NCBI RefSeq assembly: GCF_963665995.1
Contig: NZ_OY762512.1
Location: 4,216,001 to 4,280,000 of the forward strand
Reading direction: 5' to 3'
From: Pleurocapsa sp. FMAR1
GTDB taxonomy: Bacteria; Cyanobacteriota; Cyanobacteriia; Cyanobacteriales; Xenococcaceae
DNA length: 64,000 bases
The translations under genes and the position numbers were made by a program. A model generated the notes under the pieces. That model saw nothing but the letters and a program-made list of their open reading frames with translations. It was not told the DNA's origin and did not search any database. Positions 4,201 to 23,619 of this stretch are shown in pieces. Numbering within the stretch: the stretch's first letter is position 1; every line of letters starts with the position of its first letter.

Positions 4201-4947
4201 ATGAATCTATCTAATCAGTTTTCCCAATCTCAGCCGACCATCATTCGCCTAGAAGCAGTAGAAAAAGTTTACGGTAGTGGCAATACAACAGTTCATGCCT
4301 TAGATAAAGTCGATCTTACTATCCATCAGGGAGAATACTGCTCGATAATGGGTGCGTCTGGTTCAGGCAAATCTACAGTCATGAATATAATTGGCTGTTT
4401 GGATCGACCAACCGCAGGAAAATATTATTTAGACAATATAGCAGTAGCAGGATTAGTTGATGAAGATTTAGCAGAAATTCGCAACCGCAAAATCGGCTTT
4501 GTGTTTCAGCAGTTTCATTTATTGCCTCAAGTTAGTGCCTTAGAAAATGTTATGTTACCCATGGTTTATGCAGGAATACCTAGCAAGGAAAGGCAGGAAA
4601 GAGCAGCCCTAGCCTTAGACAAAGTTGGTTTAGGCAATAGAGTTCACAATCGACCAAATCAGCTTTCTGGAGGGCAACAGCAGCGAGTTGCGATCGCCAG
4701 GGCTATTGTTAACGAACCATTATTATTATTGGCAGATGAACCTACTGGAGCGTTAGACTCCCATACAACCAAAGAAGTATTAGCAATTTTTTGCGAACTA
4801 CATCATAGTGGCATTACCGTAGTTATGGTTACTCACGAGTCCGAGGTAGCTAAACTAACTGAAAGAATTATTTGGTTTAAAGATGGTCAAATAGTTCACT
4901 CTCACCTCACCCCCGAAGAAATGATTGCCGTAGCAGTGGCTACTTAG
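4201..4947 (+). CDS. ABC transporter ATP-binding protein, MacB/LolD/DevA type
   Basis: This is a complete nucleotide-binding subunit: Walker [11 protein letters not shown]-loop [10 protein letters not shown], signature LSGGQQQR, Walker [14 protein letters not shown] and H-loop VTHE. The sequence around the Q-loop and TGALDS is typical of the MacB/LolD/DevA group, which energises export or lipoprotein release together with an FtsX-like permease and an adaptor. No permease or adaptor gene is adjacent, so the partners must be elsewhere. An in-frame ATG at 4168 would add 11 residues. I prefer 4201 because the extra segment encodes a HIP1-containing stretch unlike the family N-terminus, but neither start has a clear ribosome-binding site. 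Confidence 0.88.
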
Positions 4948-5103
4948 TCTATATATATGTTTACTGCCACAGCGGATTATAAACTAAAACATCATAAAGT
5001 GCTAAGTAAAATGTAGTTTTGTATACTATTATGATTAATAGTAATCACATCACATATTGCTTTGAAGGCAAAAAGTGAGAATTAATTAAGTCGGTAGACA
5101 AAG

Positions 5104-6858
5104 GTGGATTTCAAGAGCGAAAAGCATTTATCTGTACGTCCAGGCGTTCAGCAAGCAACAATGGATTATTCTCAGCTAGAACCTACTTATTCTTCGCGCT
5201 ATGATGCCAAAGCGATCGGGTCTCAGTATCGTTGGCGACCTTTGCGGGTAATCTGGCGGGCGATCGCCGTTATTTGGCTATTTGGCAATTTTGCCCTGCA
5301 TCTCTTATTCGATAAGTGGACAAATAGAGTGGCTGTAAATCGGCAAAAGCGAGCTATTGAACTGCGCCGAGTCTTAACCAAACTAGGCCCTACATACATC
5401 AAGGTAGGACAGGCTCTTTCTACCAGACCCGATCTGATTCGCAAGGATTTTTTAGATGAGTTAATTAAGCTTCAGGATCAGCTTCCAGCTTTTGATAACC
5501 GAATTGCTTTTAAAATCATCGAATTGGAGCTAGAACGCTCTATCGAAGAAGCCTATCGAGAATTTTCCGCTAACCCTGTGGCTGCTGCCAGCTTGGGTCA
5601 AGTATATAAGGCGGTGCTGCATACTGGCGAAGATGTGGCTGTAAAAGTTCAACGTCCTAATTTACGTCCTACACTCAATCTCGATCTTTATTTAATGAGA
5701 CGTATAGCGGTTTGGGTAGAGCCTTGGCTACCGCTAAACTTGGGTCATGACTTGGCTCTAATTGTTGATGAATTTGGGATGAAACTATTTGAAGAAATAG
5801 ATTATTATCACGAGGCAAGAAACGCCGAACAGTTTGCTCTTAATTTTGCTGGCGATCCTGATGTTAAGGTGCCAGTGATTTATAACCAGTTTAGTAGCGA
5901 AAAAGTCTTAACCTTGGAGTGGATTGATGGCATCAAGCTAACTGACTTAGATAAATTAGCAGCAGCAGGTTTGGATGCAGACAATCTGATTAAAATTGGT
6001 GTAACTTCAGGCTTGCGTCAGCTATTGGAATATGGCTTTTTCCATGCCGATCCTCATCCTGGTAATTTATTTGCTACCCTTGATGGTCGCATGGCTTATA
6101 TCGACTTTGGCATGATGGATCAGCTTAGTGAGTCGATGAAAGAAACTATAGCCAGTGCTGTAGTGCAGCTAATTAACCGTGACTATCAGAGTTTGGCAAG
6201 AGATTTTGTCAGCTTGGGCTTTTTGACTCCTGAGACGGATATTCAGCCTATTGTCCCAGCATTAGAAAAAGTTTTGGGTAATGCCATCGGTGAAAGCGTC
6301 GGTGATTTTAACTTTAAGACCATTACCGACGAGTTTTCTGAACTAATGTACGAGTACCCTTTCCGCTTACCTGCTAAGTTTGCCCTGATTATTCGCTCTT
6401 TGATTACTCAAGAAGGATTAGCACTTAGCCTTAACCCCGACTTCAGAATTGTCGAGGTGTCTTATCCCTATGTATCTCAGAGGCTATTAACGGGTGAATC
6501 GCCTCAGTTAAGACGACGTTTACTAGATGTTTTAATTCAAGACGGCAAATTCCAGTGGACAAGATTAGAAAATATGATTGCGATCGCCAGTGCCGATGAC
6601 AACTTCGATCTATTGCCTACAGCCCGCCTAGGTTTACAGTATATTCTTTCAGAAGAAGGTCAATATTTGCGCCAGCAGCTACTTATTGCTTTAACTGAAG
6701 GCGATCGCCTGCATACTGATGAGGTGAAAAGACTCTGGAGTTTAATTCAAGACGATATTAAACCGCAAAAGATACTTGACCTAGCTTTTAATACTTTTCG
6801 TCAGATCTCTGCTGATAGCGTCGCTGCGATTATTCCTTCTGCTACCACTTCAAGATAA
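5104..6858 (+). CDS. ABC1/UbiB (AarF) family kinase-like protein
   Basis: A protein-kinase-like fold of the ABC1/UbiB family, whose members act in prenylquinone metabolism or lipid homeostasis in membranes. Family marks are KVGQALSTRPDL (residues 100-111), the alanine-rich nucleotide loop PVAAASLGQVY (158-168) replacing the usual glycine-rich loop, VAVKVQRP with lysine 181, HADPHPGNL as catalytic loop and YIDFGMMD as the metal-binding DFG. At 584 residues it has the usual length for cyanobacterial paralogues. The GTG at 5104 is the longest start. ATG 5161 (20th codon) is an equally good candidate, and neither has a strong ribosome-binding site. The exact substrate is unknown. Confidence 0.88.
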   Translation: MDFKSEKHLSVRPGVQQATMDYSQLEPTYSSRYDAKAIGSQYRWRPLRVIWRAIAVIWLFGNFALHLLFDKWTNRVAVNRQKRAIELRRVLTKLGPTYIKVGQALSTRPDLIRKDFLDELIKLQDQLPAFDNRIAFKIIELELERSIEEAYREFSANPVAAASLGQVYKAVLHTGEDVAVKVQRPNLRPTLNLDLYLMRRIAVWVEPWLPLNLGHDLALIVDEFGMKLFEEIDYYHEARNAEQFALNFAGDPDVKVPVIYNQFSSEKVLTLEWIDGIKLTDLDKLAAAGLDADNLIKIGVTSGLRQLLEYGFFHADPHPGNLFATLDGRMAYIDFGMMDQLSESMKETIASAVVQLINRDYQSLARDFVSLGFLTPETDIQPIVPALEKVLGNAIGESVGDFNFKTITDEFSELMYEYPFRLPAKFALIIRSLITQEGLALSLNPDFRIVEVSYPYVSQRLLTGESPQLRRRLLDVLIQDGKFQWTRLENMIAIASADDNFDLLPTARLGLQYILSEEGQYLRQQLLIALTEGDRLHTDEVKRLWSLIQDDIKPQKILDLAFNTFRQISADSVAAIIPSATTSR

Positions 6859-17494: not shown

Positions 17495-19213
17495 TTAAAA
17501 ACCTAAATCTGCTTTGGCAACTTCTGCTGCTGCATATACCTGTTCATTGGGCATTTCTTCCCAGTCGGTACAGCCAATCTCGCGGTAGAATTGAGCATCG
17601 TAGGCGCGAGTTCTTACTACTACAGGCATTGGTACGGCATGACCTAAAATCAAAGCTTGTTGCTTGGAGTCTAGTTTAGCTAATACCGACTTTAAATTAG
17701 CTCCTCCGGAAACACCTGTAAAGATCGCCTCGATATCTTTTTCGTCGTTTAGTAAGCAGGTAACCCGTGTACCAATCTGGGACATGACTTCGTTATCAAT
17801 TCCTGATGGACGCTGATCTACCACCAAAAGAGTAACAAAATACTTACGCATTTCGCGGGCGATCGTGCCAAAGATGGTTTGGTGGACAATACTAGAATCA
17901 AGGAAACGGTGCGCTTCTTCAATGGTAATTACTAACTGGCGGGGTTTATCGAGGGGGTTTTTGGTTTGTAAAAAGTGATCGGCTTTTTTGACGTAGCTGG
18001 AGTGAATACGACGAGTAATCATATTTGTTGCCAGCATATAGGACAGCATATTAGACTGAGAACCAAATTCGATGATAATATTTTTCCCTGCATCTAAAGC
18101 TTGAATCAATTGCTCAATATAGTTGTGGGGACAGGCTGAACGAATGTATTTTAGGCTATCTAGACGCATCAATTTGCGCTGCAAAGAAGAAATTGAACCT
18201 TGATGACCTTGTTTGGCTTCGCAGAACATTTTAATATCTTCGTTGGTCATATTTAGCAAACGCATGATCCAAGACTTACCATATTCGTTGTATAAGATGT
18301 TGGCGTTATCCATTGCTGCTTCAGATAGACCTAATTCGGAAGAGACTAACTTTAGGTCTTCAATTTCAATTTGATCGTAGCTAAGATAAAGTTCTTGGGC
18401 ATCCCTAACGCCTCTGCGCTTGGTAGATTCGGGGTCAAGAGTATACATTTCTACTTTCCCTGGAAAAAGCTGACGCAAGCCTTTAACGGTGCTTACCTGC
18501 TTTCCTTCCTTCATTGCTTCCCAGCCGTATTCTGAGTGCATATCAAACATCAGATTGACTGCTGCATCCTTGCGAATAACTCCCGAAAGCAGAAGACGAG
18601 TGAGAAAAGATTTACCAGTTCCAGATTTACCGAAGATTCCATTACTACGTTCTACAAAGCGATCGAGATCGATACAGACAGGCACATTCATATCTAAAGG
18701 TTCACCAATAGAAAAATTGCGACGAAAAGGATCGTCTTCCCAACCAAAGACGCTGCGGAAATCATGTTCGGTAGCTTCGTAGCATTGACTAAAGTGGGCA
18801 GGAATTGTCTTGACGGGTAATAATTCCATATCAATGCTAGTTTGAGCTTGCAGAGAACCCAAACTTGTATCCTTATCTGGATCTATAGGTAAATTAGGAA
18901 AATCGCTCTGAGTGGCTGTGGGGGTAAACATCAGCATGGGGGAAAGAGCAACAGTACCATAAGTACCGCTTCCTGCTAAGACATCCCGTAAAAAAGTATC
19001 TTCAATAGGTGGAGGATTGGCAATAATGCGATCGCTCGAACACCCAAGAGATACATCAGTTAATAAGCAAAAGAAACGTGACCTTGTTCCTTGAATTACT
19101 AAAAATTTACCGACTCGCATATCTTCAACTGATACATCAGGGTGTAATCTTACTTCTAAGCCTTTGGTTAAAGAACCTTGAATTACTGAGCCTAAAGGGA
19201 GTTGCGAGTTCAT
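17495..19213 (-). CDS. HerA-type ATPase (DUF87) with N-terminal barrel
   Basis: A 572-residue HerA/FtsK-superfamily ATPase. Residues 1-130 form a beta-rich HAS-barrel-like domain. Walker A GKSGTGKS is at 195-202, followed by the conserved MFDMHSEYGWEAM. Walker B LVITIEEAHRF is near 425-435. The sensor region VVDQRPSGIDNEVMSQIGTRV and arginine-rich C-terminal part follow. HerA proteins are hexameric DNA translocases that work with the nuclease NurA in end resection or in defence. No nurA is adjacent. It converges with the pentapeptide gene. An Uma2 gene lies 37 bases upstream on the same strand and may be cotranscribed. Confidence 0.85.
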   Translation of the reverse strand: MNSQLPLGSVIQGSLTKGLEVRLHPDVSVEDMRVGKFLVIQGTRSRFFCLLTDVSLGCSSDRIIANPPPIEDTFLRDVLAGSGTYGTVALSPMLMFTPTATQSDFPNLPIDPDKDTSLGSLQAQTSIDMELLPVKTIPAHFSQCYEATEHDFRSVFGWEDDPFRRNFSIGEPLDMNVPVCIDLDRFVERSNGIFGKSGTGKSFLTRLLLSGVIRKDAAVNLMFDMHSEYGWEAMKEGKQVSTVKGLRQLFPGKVEMYTLDPESTKRRGVRDAQELYLSYDQIEIEDLKLVSSELGLSEAAMDNANILYNEYGKSWIMRLLNMTNEDIKMFCEAKQGHQGSISSLQRKLMRLDSLKYIRSACPHNYIEQLIQALDAGKNIIIEFGSQSNMLSYMLATNMITRRIHSSYVKKADHFLQTKNPLDKPRQLVITIEEAHRFLDSSIVHQTIFGTIAREMRKYFVTLLVVDQRPSGIDNEVMSQIGTRVTCLLNDEKDIEAIFTGVSGGANLKSVLAKLDSKQQALILGHAVPMPVVVRTRAYDAQFYREIGCTDWEEMPNEQVYAAAEVAKADLGF

Positions 19214-19250
19214 ACTTATACCTAATACGTTAAATTACCAATGCCTTTTA

Positions 19251-19835
19251 CTACACTGGAAATATTTGACTACAATCTAGATTTAGTTTGAAAGGTCTGT
19301 CAAAACAAATCATTTTGCTACTAACATCATGAATTTCTGATTCATATAAACCATCTTGGAGTTGCAAACAAACAAATTTTTGCTCTTGAGGATCTATAAT
19401 CCAATAATGCTCAATTCCTCTGGCAGCATACTCTGAACGCTTATATCTATAGTCTTTGTCACGATTAGCTTTTCCTGGAGAAACCACTTCGACTACCAAA
19501 ACTGGAGGAGGCATATCTAGAGTCACAACAGCACGTTTGTACAGTTCTATTTCCGATAGTCCTTCAGGAGATAAAACAACTAAGTCAGGAATTCTGGCAT
19601 TTACCCGATTGCCACTAGTAATTATTTCGGTTTTGAGAGAAATACGTTCAAAAGATATAACCTTAGCTATTTCCATTAGCAAATACATAGCTATTTTAGT
19701 ATTTTGCCAAGATTCAGGTGGCATTTCTCGTAACTGTCCATTTTCTAATTCATATATTTTTTCCGAATCTACCTGAGAAAAATTTAGATATTCTTCTAAA
19801 GTAAAGCGATTAGATAGTAATTTTTGAGTTAGCAT
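19251..19835 (-). CDS. Uma2 family (DUF820) PD-(D/E)XK nuclease-like protein
   Basis: A 194-residue member of the Uma2 family, very abundant in cyanobacteria and built on a restriction-endonuclease-like core. Likely active-site residues are D84 in IPDLVVLSP and E116 in VLVVEVVSPG, followed by the conserved RGIEHYWIIDP. The biological role of Uma2 proteins is not established. It is one of three in this window and sits upstream of the HerA-type ATPase on the same strand. Confidence 0.9.
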   Translation of the reverse strand: MLTQKLLSNRFTLEEYLNFSQVDSEKIYELENGQLREMPPESWQNTKIAMYLLMEIAKVISFERISLKTEIITSGNRVNARIPDLVVLSPEGLSEIELYKRAVVTLDMPPPVLVVEVVSPGKANRDKDYRYKRSEYAARGIEHYWIIDPQEQKFVCLQLQDGLYESEIHDVSSKMICFDRPFKLNLDCSQIFPV

Positions 19836-19993
19836 TTTTCAATTTAATACAAGGCATTCTCAGAATAAAATTTGTTTTAATTAGATTTTAGACTTTGGCA
19901 AATAATTGATATTTTTCTGGTAACTTAGGCTTATTCCGCTAATTTTAGCCGATTTTATTTTTATATCCTACCAAATTAAAATAAAGAGTTATT

Positions 19994-20971
19994 ATGTCAA
20001 CTACTAAAAAACTAACTTTACCCCTAATGGGTTGCGGGACTTGGGCGTGGGGAAACCGCCTGTTGTGGGGTTATGACGAAAGTATGGATAATCAGCTACA
20101 GGAAGTATTTAATCTCTGCGTGAATCGTGGCGTTACTTTGTTTGACACTGGAGATTCTTACGGTACGGGTAAGTTTAATGGTCAGAGTGAAAAGCTACTA
20201 GGGAAATTTGCACAAGAATATACAGGGTTGAATAAAAATGATATCTGTCTGGCGACTAAATTAGCTGCCTATCCCTGGCGATTAACTAGAGGTTCAATGG
20301 TAGCTGCGGGGAAAGCTTCAATACAACGGATGGGTAGGGTGGATTTAGCGCAAATGCACTGGTCAACGGCTAATTATTTTCCTTGGCAAGAATGGCAGCT
20401 TTTAGACGGCTTGGCAGACCTATACGAACAAGGATTGATTAAAGGAGTGGGACTATCTAACTATGGAACAAAGAGATTGAAAAAAGTAGCTGAGAAATTT
20501 AGTAGTCGCAACATTCCCATTGCAACTTTACAGGTGCAGTATTCTCTGCTTTCAACCTATCCTGTAACGGAATTAGATATCAAGACTACCTGTGACGAAT
20601 TGGGTATTAAATTAATTGCCTATAGTCCCTTATGTCTGGGTATCTTAACAGGCAAATATACTGACCCTAGCACTTATCCCCAAGGCTTACGAGGCTTACT
20701 GTTTAAAAGACTAGTCCCCGAAGCCAAATCGCTTTTAGACTGTATGAGTGCGATCGCTTTATCCCGTGATAAAACCATGTCTCAAGTAGCGATTAACTGG
20801 TGTATTGCTAAAGGTGCAATTCCCATTCCTGGAGCAAAAAATATCAAACAGGCTCAAGAAAACATCGCTGCCAAAGACTGGAAACTAGACGCAGGAGAAA
20901 TAGCAGAATTAGATCGTGCAGCAGCAAGGATAGACAAGCCAATGGTACAGAATGTCTTCCAAACTCGATAA
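19994..20971 (+). CDS. Aldo/keto reductase
   Basis: A 325-residue NADPH-dependent aldo/keto reductase with a TIM-barrel fold. The catalytic tetrad reads as D51, Y56, K89 and H122 (LFDTGDSYG, LATKLAAYP, AQMHW). The C-terminal cofactor segment is IPIPGAKNIKQAQEN. Cyanobacterial and plant relatives (YakC/AKR-type) reduce aldehydes or ketones. The substrate is not predictable. It is a single gene upstream of the MerR-controlled oxidoreductase region. Confidence 0.9.
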   Translation: MSTTKKLTLPLMGCGTWAWGNRLLWGYDESMDNQLQEVFNLCVNRGVTLFDTGDSYGTGKFNGQSEKLLGKFAQEYTGLNKNDICLATKLAAYPWRLTRGSMVAAGKASIQRMGRVDLAQMHWSTANYFPWQEWQLLDGLADLYEQGLIKGVGLSNYGTKRLKKVAEKFSSRNIPIATLQVQYSLLSTYPVTELDIKTTCDELGIKLIAYSPLCLGILTGKYTDPSTYPQGLRGLLFKRLVPEAKSLLDCMSAIALSRDKTMSQVAINWCIAKGAIPIPGAKNIKQAQENIAAKDWKLDAGEIAELDRAAARIDKPMVQNVFQTR

Positions 20972-21010
20972 GCGAACAACAATAAATGGCATTATATCAA
21001 AGTTTAAAAT

Positions 21011-21110
21011 TAATACTTGACATTGGAGTATACTCCGTAGTTTAAGTTTGACATAGTTGTTTAATTTACAGGCAAGACACTATGCAAAATTCAACCAAAG
21101 CAAGCAAAAA
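21011..21110 (+). repeat. Copy A of a duplicated promoter plus start region
   Basis: About 100 bases almost identical to 22584-22688. The shared segment covers the MerR-type promoter, the untranslated leader and the first ~9 codons (MQNSTKA). Differences are scattered single bases and a small indel just before the ATG. Sequence identity stops where the GC-rich coding sequence begins. Confidence 0.85.
21017..21046 (+). promoter_or_regulatory. MerR-type promoter/operator upstream of 21082
   Basis: A -35 box TTGACA (21017-21022) is followed by the perfect palindrome GGAGTATACTCC (21025-21036) in a lengthened spacer before a weak -10 (around TTTAAG/TTAAGT). This is the layout of promoters activated by MerR-family regulators through DNA untwisting. 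The same element stands before the SDR gene next to merR. Confidence 0.8.
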
Positions 21111-22089
21111 AGATGAGGTAATCATGCAAGACATTCCCCAACAGATGAAAGCAATGGCTGTGGACGATTTCGGCGGTTCTGACAAGCTGACTTTGCACAC
21201 CTTACCTGTACCTCCAGTGGAGGCAGGCGAAGTTTTGATTCGCATCGAGATCGCTGGAGTTGGCATCTGGGACGCGATGGAGCGCGAAGGTGATCTAGTA
21301 TATAACGAAGTTCACTTCCCGCGCGTACTGGGTGGTGAATGTGCTGGCATCATTGCTGCTGTCGGCAACAGTGTCGAGCGTTTTGCCGTCGGCGATCGCG
21401 TTTACGCCCAAAGCTTCATGAACGATAAGGGCGGTTCCTACGCGCAATACGTCGTGGTGCCAGAAAAGAGCGTCGCGACCATTCCTGATGGCTTCGATAT
21501 GATGATGGCGGGCGGTTTTCCCATCGCTGGTGCGACGGCGTTGCGTAACCTGGAGGCACTAGGCATCGATGACGAGACCCAACTGATGCTGTGGGGCGCG
21601 AGCGGTGGCGTGGGTCATGTAGCCTTGCAGCTTGCCAAACGGATGGGAGCGCGCGTCTTTGCAATCGCATCGGGCGATGACGGCGTGGCATTGTCTAAAG
21701 AATTGGGTGCTGACGAAACTGTTGACGGGCGTAGCGATGACGTGATCGAACGCGCTCGCGCCTTTGCACCCGATGGCTTTGATAAAGCGTTTCTGCTGAT
21801 CATGGGCGACCAAGTGCAAGACTCGTTAGACTTGGTGAGGCAAGGCGGGAGGATTTCTTTCCCTAACGGCGTGATGCCCGAACCTGTAGCGCCCGACGGC
21901 GTGGAACTGACTAAGGCTGACGGCTATGGGGATGAGCGATTGTTCCGTCAACTCAACACCTTGGCCGAAATCGGCGACTTCCGAGTTCACATCGCGCAGA
22001 CGTTTCCGCTCGAAGAGGTCGCGCAAGCGCAAGAAGCGATGAAAAAGCATTATCTGGGCAAAATCGTGCTGCGCGTGAGCGGCGAATAA
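21082..22089 (+). CDS. Zinc-independent quinone oxidoreductase-like MDR enzyme, GC-rich
   Basis: A 335-residue NADPH-dependent medium-chain dehydrogenase/reductase of the quinone-oxidoreductase type. The N-terminal GroES-like domain includes GECAGIIAAVGNSVERFAVGDRVYA and the Rossmann fold contains GASGGVGHVALQLAKRMGARVF. The first ~14 residues (MQNSTKASK...) copy the start of the neighbouring SDR gene. A second ATG at 21124 has its own good ribosome-binding site (GAGG, 5 bases) and may be the native start. From about 21150 the coding sequence is clearly richer in GC and GC-ending codons than its neighbours, indicating horizontal acquisition. It is probably under MerR control. Confidence 0.88.
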   Translation: MQNSTKASKKDEVIMQDIPQQMKAMAVDDFGGSDKLTLHTLPVPPVEAGEVLIRIEIAGVGIWDAMEREGDLVYNEVHFPRVLGGECAGIIAAVGNSVERFAVGDRVYAQSFMNDKGGSYAQYVVVPEKSVATIPDGFDMMMAGGFPIAGATALRNLEALGIDDETQLMLWGASGGVGHVALQLAKRMGARVFAIASGDDGVALSKELGADETVDGRSDDVIERARAFAPDGFDKAFLLIMGDQVQDSLDLVRQGGRISFPNGVMPEPVAPDGVELTKADGYGDERLFRQLNTLAEIGDFRVHIAQTFPLEEVAQAQEAMKKHYLGKIVLRVSGE

Positions 22090-22207
22090 GAGCCTGTCGA
22101 AAGGGCGCTATAAATCACCAACCTCTGCCCAACGATAAAGTTGAGCCGACGCAGATAACACTGAAATGCAGACCAGTAATCTCTCGCTATTTGGCTTCAA
22201 AACCTTG

Positions 22208-22555
22208 TTATCCCTTGCTTTCCAGGCGTTTTAGCTTTTCGACAAGATGGCACTTATACTCTTGAAGTTGAGCGATCTTCTCATCCATTTCTTCAATTTT
22301 TTTGCGAATTAGCCGCGCCTTATCTTCGTTTGAAAGTATGTCCCACTCATCCATCGATTGCTTAATTTCCCTGAGGGTAAATCCCAGGGCTTTTCCATGC
22401 TTGATAAACTCTAAACGCGACACAACTTCATCATCGTAGTTCCGATAGTTATTTTCTGCACGCTTGTTGTTTGAGTTGAGGAGTCCAGTCTTCTCGTAGA
22501 AACGAATTGTATCTTTCGAGAATCCTGTTTTTTGGGAGAGTTCGCTAATCAACAT
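22208..22555 (-). CDS. MerR family transcriptional regulator
   Basis: A 115-residue MerR-type regulator. The winged helix-turn-helix at the N-terminus is LISELSQKTGFSKDTIRFYEKTGLL, followed by the typical RNYDDEVVSRLEFIKHGKALGFTLREIK and a coiled-coil dimerisation helix. There is no cysteine-rich metal or iron-sulfur site; a single Cys lies near residue 102. The effector is therefore probably organic or redox-related rather than a metal. It diverges from the SDR gene and points tail-to-tail with the GC-rich oxidoreductase gene. Both flanking genes carry the same MerR-type operator, so both are likely targets. Confidence 0.9.
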   Translation of the reverse strand: MLISELSQKTGFSKDTIRFYEKTGLLNSNNKRAENNYRNYDDEVVSRLEFIKHGKALGFTLREIKQSMDEWDILSNEDKARLIRKKIEEMDEKIAQLQEYKCHLVEKLKRLESKG

Positions 22556-22583
22556 AAAACACTAAGGTTGAGAAGTTTAGAAT

Positions 22584-22688
22584 TAGTACTTGACATTGGA
22601 GTATACTCCATAGTTTAAGTTTGACATAGTTCTTAAATTTACAGGTTAGACACTATACTATGCAAAATTCAACTAAAGCAAACAAAAC
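22584..22688 (+). repeat. Copy B of the duplicated promoter plus start region
   Basis: This is the counterpart of 21011-21110. Here the shared coding start MQNSTKANK runs smoothly into a typical SDR nucleotide-binding motif, so this copy is likely the original. Confidence 0.85.
22590..22619 (+). promoter_or_regulatory. MerR-type promoter/operator in the merR-SDR divergent region
   Basis: TTGACA at 22590-22595, then the palindrome GGAGTATACTCC at 22598-22609, then a weak -10 near TTTAAGT, matching the copy at 21017-21046. It lies between divergent merR and the SDR gene, the classic arrangement for MerR autoregulation and activation. Confidence 0.82.
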
Positions 22689-23619
22689 TGTTATTATTAC
22701 TGGCGCAACCAGTGGTTTAGGCTATTCCTGCGCTGAGGCGATCGCCAGATCTGGGCAAGACTGGCAGATCATCATCGCTAGTCGAAATCTGTCTAAAGTT
22801 GAAGAAGCCGTTCGTACCTTAATAGCTGAAACTAAATACCCAAATATTGAAGGTATGAGTCTTGATTTAGCATCCACAGCATCAGTACGTCAGTTCGTAA
22901 AAAACTTTCTTACTGGAGAACGTCCACCTTTACAGGCGATCGTTTGTAATGCAGGAATTTCACTCGTTTCAGACACGCTCTATACAGAAGATGGGTTTGA
23001 GATGACGTTTGGTGTAAACCATCTAGGACACTTTCTACTCGTCAATCTGCTTTTGCCCCAGATGAGCGATCGCTCTGGCATCGTATTTGTCAGCAGCAGC
23101 GTACACGATCCAGATGCCAATACTGGAATGCCTCACCCGCAATACCAAGCTGCAAAAGCCCTCGCATTTCCCACCGATGACGATAATAACGCCAACATCG
23201 GAAACACGGGGCGGGAACGCTATACCACTTCTAAGCTCTGCAATATTCTCTGTGCTTACGAGCTTTCCCGTCGCTTGCAAAAGCAACAGTCAAATATTAC
23301 AGTTAATGCTTTCAACCCAGGTTTAATGCTCGACACAAAGTTTTATCGAGACTGCAGCGAATCAGAAATGTCTGCTTTCGTCGCAAATGTTCCACAGTCT
23401 ATCATGGATAGCGCTAGAGACTCTAAAACAATGGGCAACGCTCTGGCTAGACTCATTCTCGACCCCTCACTTAATGGTACTACGGGTAAATATTTCGATG
23501 GACTGGAGGAAGTTCGATCTTCTGATGAATCCTACGATGAGAAGAAAGCAACCGAACTTTGGGAGTCCAGTGCAGAATTACTCAAGCTTTCACCTAAAGA
23601 AGCAACGCTTGTGCAATAA
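22660..23619 (+). CDS. Short-chain dehydrogenase/reductase, protochlorophyllide-reductase-like
   Basis: A 319-residue SDR with the NADP-binding TGATSGLGYS at about residues 13-22, CNAGIS (NAG motif), and the catalytic Tyr-x3-Lys in RYTTSK (Y~188, K~192). Its length and the extra loop after the catalytic serine strand (VSSSVHDPDANTGMPHP) resemble the light-dependent protochlorophyllide reductase/retinol dehydrogenase branch of SDRs. True LPOR function is not claimed. It is divergent from merR and carries a MerR-type promoter, so it is probably induced by the regulator's signal. Confidence 0.87.
   Translation: MQNSTKANKTVIITGATSGLGYSCAEAIARSGQDWQIIIASRNLSKVEEAVRTLIAETKYPNIEGMSLDLASTASVRQFVKNFLTGERPPLQAIVCNAGISLVSDTLYTEDGFEMTFGVNHLGHFLLVNLLLPQMSDRSGIVFVSSSVHDPDANTGMPHPQYQAAKALAFPTDDDNNANIGNTGRERYTTSKLCNILCAYELSRRLQKQQSNITVNAFNPGLMLDTKFYRDCSESEMSAFVANVPQSIMDSARDSKTMGNALARLILDPSLNGTTGKYFDGLEEVRSSDESYDEKKATELWESSAELLKLSPKEATLVQ

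Follow-up and report, generated by a model that had tools for sequence, protein, structure and literature searches.

A GC-rich, apparently mobile oxidoreductase gene probably joined by promoter capture to a copied MerR-type promoter in a cyanobacterial genome

The window, i.e., the whole stretch of 64,000 nucleotides that was analysed, belongs to a genome of 5.43 Mb whose phylum, cyanobacteria, was deduced from its relatives. From left to right, the locus contains an aldo/keto reductase gene, a promoter copy (Q), a GC-rich oxidoreductase gene (QOR), a merR gene, a second promoter copy (S) and the gene of an SDR-family reductase. A third promoter copy (T) lies elsewhere in the genome. The features are:

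19994-20971: aldo/keto reductase gene, ending at 20971, left of copy Q
21000-21109, plus strand: promoter copy Q, the duplicated operator-promoter, leader and nine initial SDR codons, upstream of QOR
21017-21048, plus strand: MerR-type promoter of copy Q, with -35 box TTGACA (21017-21022), 20-bp spacer and -10 box TAAGTT (21043-21048), the latter assigned from conservation across copies
21025-21036, plus strand: dyad GGAGTATACTCC of copy Q
21082-22089, plus strand: QOR, GC-rich medium-chain oxidoreductase gene, with ancestral start at 21124 and an in-frame extension of 14 codons
21110-21123, plus strand: junction bases that link the SDR-derived codons to the ancestral QOR start, including GAGG, a possible ribosome-binding site
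22208-22555, minus strand: merR, encoding a MerR-family regulator of 115 aa, transcribed towards QOR and away from the SDR gene
22573-22687, plus strand: promoter copy S, the divergent merR-SDR gap and the initial SDR codons
22590-22595, 22598-22609 and 22616-22621, plus strand: -35 box, dyad and -10 box of copy S
22660-23619, plus strand: SDR-family reductase gene (PF00106), the partner of merR
G000:C1:1418877-1418986: promoter copy T, in a paralogous merR-SDR divergent pair about 2.8 Mb from the window locus

The aldo/keto reductase gene was considered as a member of the regulon and set aside: it is present in 12 of 12 congeners, and its flanks in these genomes (up to 1.5 kb, some shorter) presented no match to QOR, merR or the SDR gene. 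Within window positions 17495-20971, an ATPase gene, which we take to be HerA-like, adjoins the aldo/keto reductase gene, an arrangement found in 9 of the 12 congener loci. The ORF between the two (19251-19835) had matches in the window genome and in one other genome (G004) only.

A preliminary description of this DNA had claimed that about 100 bases of promoter and gene start occur twice, before QOR and before the SDR gene, and had attributed this to promoter duplication from the MerR locus. The repeat is real: 77 of 84 bases are identical between 21000-21083 and 22573-22656 (92%), as compared with at most 47 of 84 in 1,000 mononucleotide shuffles. TTGACA, GGAGTATACTCC and the ATG are common to copies Q and S. 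Including nine codons, the copy spans 110 columns with nine substitutions, and the match ends at 21109, one base past the ninth codon of the copied reading frame (N-termini MQNSTKAS for QOR and MQNSTKAN for SDR). The number of copies, however, is three rather than two (next-best match in the genome, E = 0.1). Copy T, at 1.419 Mb, is flanked by paralogues of merR (83% amino acid identity) and of the SDR gene (80%), and QOR is absent beside this pair. The copied sequence carries the site of the MerR clade, and the merR-SDR pair in the window is not the only one of this genome. The second pair, likewise divergent, shares the promoter, has no adjoining QOR and occupies positions 4946-6352 of locus L004 (G000:C1:1413000-1424000). 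A homologue of the SDR gene in genome G118 (54% identity) likewise adjoins a merR. Delivery of the promoter by a plasmid or a virus was considered and dropped, the plasmids searched giving no match and the viral contigs no exact 20-base match to it.

A sigma-70 scan with spacers of 16-18 nt identified no plus-strand promoter at copy Q or S; with these spacers, the scan is blind to promoters of the 20-bp type. Promoter-like sites overlap both copies on the minus strand without enrichment (4 observed and 3.3 expected from shuffles), and the one at copy S could serve merR.

The window MerR carries the winged-helix domain of its family (PF13411, 67 bits for a cut-off of 21.6; PF09278, 53.6 bits for a cut-off of 25.4), and a dyad lies within a -35/-10 spacer of 19-20 bp, as in MerR-family promoters, with the -10 box placed by conservation. 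The protein scored below every listed equivalog cut-off and did not fall into the metal-sensing subfamily (MerR, CueR, CadR, ZntR). The paired cysteines flanking the C-terminal metal loop are absent, and no cysteine column was found in ten aligned proteins; single cysteines are present in each of the genome's two MerR proteins and in the C-terminal extension of the protein at locus L082. Because the paired metal-binding cysteines are missing, the usual metal signal is unlikely. The types of enzymes encoded nearby would point to a reactive carbonyl or quinone as the signal. Among the titles and abstract beginnings that literature searches listed, we found no paper on this locus or its MerR clade; NsrM and CvkR appear there as other cyanobacterial MerR proteins.

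We further analysed the distribution of the operator. A survey of 291 genomes of the order recovered this MerR (E<=1e-22) in eight genomes, representing nine genes with the window genome's two included, and all nine present a TTGAC[A/T]-20 bp-TAnnnT promoter with a dyad in the gap to the divergent gene. The same dyad-bearing promoter lies in the divergent gap of a Synechocystis plasmid merR that was found via its protein. The operator is thus found in 10 of 10 merR genes identified by protein search and examined (nine from the order and one from plasmids), a count outside which stand weaker plasmid MerR matches (at most 41% among the matches listed; at least 5,000 records). One more merR locus, in G298, was found through the site itself and contains the same promoter and dyad. 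Operator-first searches led to five distinct places, of which four are gaps between a merR and its divergent neighbour; the remaining place, copy Q, is the sole operator copy found outside such a gap. A consensus pattern derived from the copies matched 20 of 92 fetched loci, corresponding by coordinates to 11 distinct merR-divergent gaps, and copy Q misses this pattern because of a single odd base. The distance from the -35 box to the conserved TAnnnT, a -10 box recognized via conservation, is 20 bp in copies Q, S and T and in nine other merR loci. Relatives of the SDR protein (50-57% identity) from nine other genomes presented no GGAG-N4/5-CTCC dyad within the sequence stretch examined. On sequence grounds, the operator is that of the window MerR's clade.

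The divergent partners of these merR genes are mostly SDR-type reductases; they include a SnoaL-like protein in G017, a Lactonase-propeller match in G044 and a shortened SDR in G144. The last gene (72-aa match; positions 1071-1442 of locus L083) shares its divergent gap with a merR of this clade that is intact. A merR-SDR pair with the same operator-promoter was observed on a plasmid of Synechocystis sp. PCC 7339 (L092, 1595-2869).

QOR differs strongly in composition from its surroundings, with a GC-content of 0.553 and a GC3 of 0.600. Among the window's ORFs of 150 aa or more, called mechanically (48 in total, counting QOR), GC3 averages 0.329 (sd 0.064) and the next highest value is 0.423. 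The GC-content in 50-bp steps rises from 0.26 to 0.32, 0.40 and 0.52 at positions 21000, 21050, 21100 and 21150, confirming the earlier observation that the gene becomes GC-rich right after the copied start. Its product scored 165.2 bits against TIGR02824 (PIG3-type quinone oxidoreductase; cut-off 296.8), making it a relative and not a member by the NCBIfam cut-off.

The close kin of QOR that were found are all cyanobacterial (74-81% identity), as are the five relatives recovered by a contig scan of genomes that relied on exact peptides (21 stretches). In a sample of the phylum, with five candidates scored per genome, QOR was detected at E<=1e-70 in 2 of 386 genomes. Among the matches listed for 60 relatives, the congener G012 has the sole close copy besides the window's (others at most 38%), and this copy is broken by stops and gaps into pieces of 77, 71 and 63% identity and lacks the copied promoter. 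The check for presence in close relatives that had been proposed earlier thus found the gene in 1 of 12 congeners and only as a pseudogene, among the matches listed. Around the decayed gene (L035, 5000-6520) the sequence is GC-rich, and other open pieces look reductase-like by eye. On plasmids, one of 4,067 matching records was 60-80% identical and the rest were below 60% (others listed, 33-36%); the close match comes from a plasmid of Nostoc that was classed as conjugative. On this plasmid, of Nostoc sp. C052, an AraC-type regulator, QOR and an aldo/keto reductase lie beside partition genes (L072, 3947-7005).

The relatives' QOR genes lie in GC-rich reductase clusters. Aldo/keto reductase genes are close to QOR in six of seven relatives and an AraC-type regulator in five of seven; neither was present in the stretch examined at L040, and the neighbourhood of L056 covered 1.5 kb on each side. 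The AraC_N domain, which YqhC also has, was confirmed by Pfam in the two loci tested (L036 and L037), and the regulator was called from resemblance of the listed N-termini in L038 and L039 and from annotation in L072. Three genes separate regulator and QOR in L036. In Rhizonema, a 365-aa ORF lies between the two (L039, 1207-2304), which by eye we take to resemble IscB-like nucleases.

In the QOR tree, the window sequence, the G012 piece and seven cyanobacterial sequences form one clade (100/100) without resolution inside it, separate from the resident paralogues used; the tree drew on 10 of the 28 other loci matched in the 60 relatives and on one plasmid sequence (outgroup), with an unsettled bootstrap and a long-branch warning. 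QOR therefore groups with cyanobacteria by phylogeny but not by composition, which is half of what the preliminary description had named as evidence against its view of a foreign gene. The gene does combine the patchy distribution and the deviant composition by which horizontal acquisition is recognized. Because of its presence in 2 of 386 genomes, its copy on a plasmid classed as conjugative and its deviant GC3, QOR looks horizontally mobile. The close kin found being all cyanobacterial, the searches reveal no distant donor.

The two ATGs of QOR (21082 and 21124) lie in the same frame at a distance of 42 nt. Its relatives begin with MQNTPQQMKAMAV or similar at the second one (that of L039 is a few residues shorter), and 21124 is therefore the ancestral start, in line with the second start and ribosome-binding site described earlier. 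The 14 codons before it consist of the copied SDR start (28 nt) and the 14 junction bases. Either start is usable because the fusion is in frame. The relatives carry leaders other than copy Q, and the window retains no recognisable native leader (1 to 9 of 16 pre-ATG bases match across seven relatives). A copy of a host promoter is here fused to a gene that formerly had a different leader, which is one mark of promoter capture; under this reading, the captured promoter would also drive the gene. An insertion-sequence end after the QOR stop was considered and rejected: GAGCCTGTCNAAAG occurs once in the genome, and GAGCCTGTCNAAA is no abundant repeat (three occurrences in G012, two in G010 and none in G002, G008 and G249). 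This candidate sequence directly follows the QOR stop in both G012 and the window, which suggests a common 3' flank of the gene.

These results suggest promoter capture, i.e., that a mobile QOR was fused to a copy of the merR-SDR promoter and that MerR would control both reductases; we give this reading a probability of roughly 0.7. The mobile GC-rich gene, encoding an NAD(P)H-type oxidoreductase, would have arrived beside the merR-SDR pair. A copy of the divergent promoter, with the MerR site, the leader and nine SDR codons, would then have fused upstream of its start, displacing the original leader. The direction of copying, from SDR to QOR, is supported, because the site belongs to the MerR clade while QOR relatives have other leaders. 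The copy may plausibly have arisen by tandem duplication, its end points lying behind the ninth SDR codon and immediately ahead of QOR; the extra QOR and merR would have been lost by later trimming. Left of copy Q the merR start region is unrecognisable (11 of 29 bases match), and therefore no trace of a duplication of the whole pair is seen there. On small and rough counts, the capture may date from around the same time as the event that duplicated the merR-SDR pair, whose copies differ by a dS of 0.42 (SDR) and 0.26 (merR). MerR, possibly together with the paralogue encoded about 2.8 Mb from it, would bind and repress both promoters on their over-long 20-bp spacers, and upon a signal would distort the DNA such that SDR and QOR are made together.

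Alternatively, a third SDR gene could once have stood here: QOR would have taken the place of everything beyond its ninth codon, leaving copy Q behind, with the same regulatory outcome. The three promoters are about equidistant over the 110 columns (Q-S 9, Q-T 11 and S-T 8 differences), the five-base insertion ACTAT found before the SDR start of copy S is missing from Q and likewise from T, and the second merR-SDR pair shows that the unit can duplicate. However, reading 22090-22207 and 20972-20999 by eye showed neither an SDR 3' end nor a remnant of a third merR, and we consider such a replacement possible but doubtful.

It is less probable, and in our view unlikely, that copy Q is a relic which MerR no longer binds, with QOR silent or driven by another promoter. 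Copy Q presents a G at 21037 where the ten other aligned copies have an A, which breaks an outer pair of the dyad and may weaken MerR binding, and the terminal branch of QOR (0.19) exceeds those of all other full-length clade members. Yet 22 of 34 core positions are invariant across the ten other copies and Q retains 21 of them; Q and S differ at one position in this core and at eight in the remaining 76 columns. The QOR frame is open, and dN (0.12-0.16) is well below dS (0.81-1.13) relative to its kin, indicating purifying selection. Finally, an old, vertically inherited and merely GC-rich gene would fit the cyanobacterial origin of every close relative found but is very improbable given its scarcity in phylum and genus, the GC3 of 0.56-0.65 in all seven intact relatives measured and the plasmid-borne copy.

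Under promoter capture, a broader and only tentative scenario is that this MerR clade is an uncharacterised sensor of reactive carbonyls or quinones without metal cysteines, and that its operator-promoter is a portable unit serving a variety of redox enzymes. A mobile reductase might thereby have gained lasting regulated expression by natural capture, while its counterpart in G012, lacking the promoter, decayed, and two MerR paralogues might share three promoters. The locus supplies a testable operator for the clade. Knowledge of how foreign genes come under regulated expression derives largely from laboratory selections. At this locus, the sequence itself displays the original promoter and its duplicate, the start codon used ancestrally, the altered leader and a degenerate relative that lacks the promoter.

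In the laboratory, capture by tandem duplication or deletion activates horizontally transferred genes, according to one report (PMC11111574), which cites work by Li and Bock in 2019, Blount et al. in 2012 and Anderson and Roth in 1978. As described there, a promoterless gene is fused to a neighbour's promoter and duplication is a stated route, as proposed for QOR. Unlike in those selections, the QOR locus is natural, the captured promoter has a regulator site, the regulator gene adjoins it, and the duplication route is one that we infer.

In published MerR-type sites, the spacer measures 19-20 bp and the centre of the dyad falls 8 bp past the -35 box (PMC5045206, PMC1526738, PMC9909328). The regulator dimer, seated on a promoter with an extended spacer, represses it as long as the signal is absent and distorts the DNA once the signal is present (PMC9909328). 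The window promoters resemble these ZntR/MerR-type promoters in the dyad between the -35 and -10 boxes, the 20-bp spacer and the position of the centre, and the operator of the window clade contains the half-site GGAGT..ACTCC of the ZntR consensus (PMC1526738, PMC5045206, PMC9909328). In contrast to ZntR/MerR systems, the partners are mostly reductases rather than metal exporters, and paired cysteines are missing from the regulator.

The available text on yqhC-yqhD-dkgA describes a regulated aldehyde reductase cluster (PMC6115493, PMC8262776). Several relatives' QOR genes similarly lie near AraC_N regulator and aldo/keto reductase genes, and by analogy their cluster may answer to aldehydes, whereas the window QOR has no flanking AraC-type gene and its control element is MerR-type. 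Overall, the QOR locus looks like a natural case of an evolutionary route known from the laboratory: the kind of event is apparently familiar, and the sequence documents its steps with unusual completeness.
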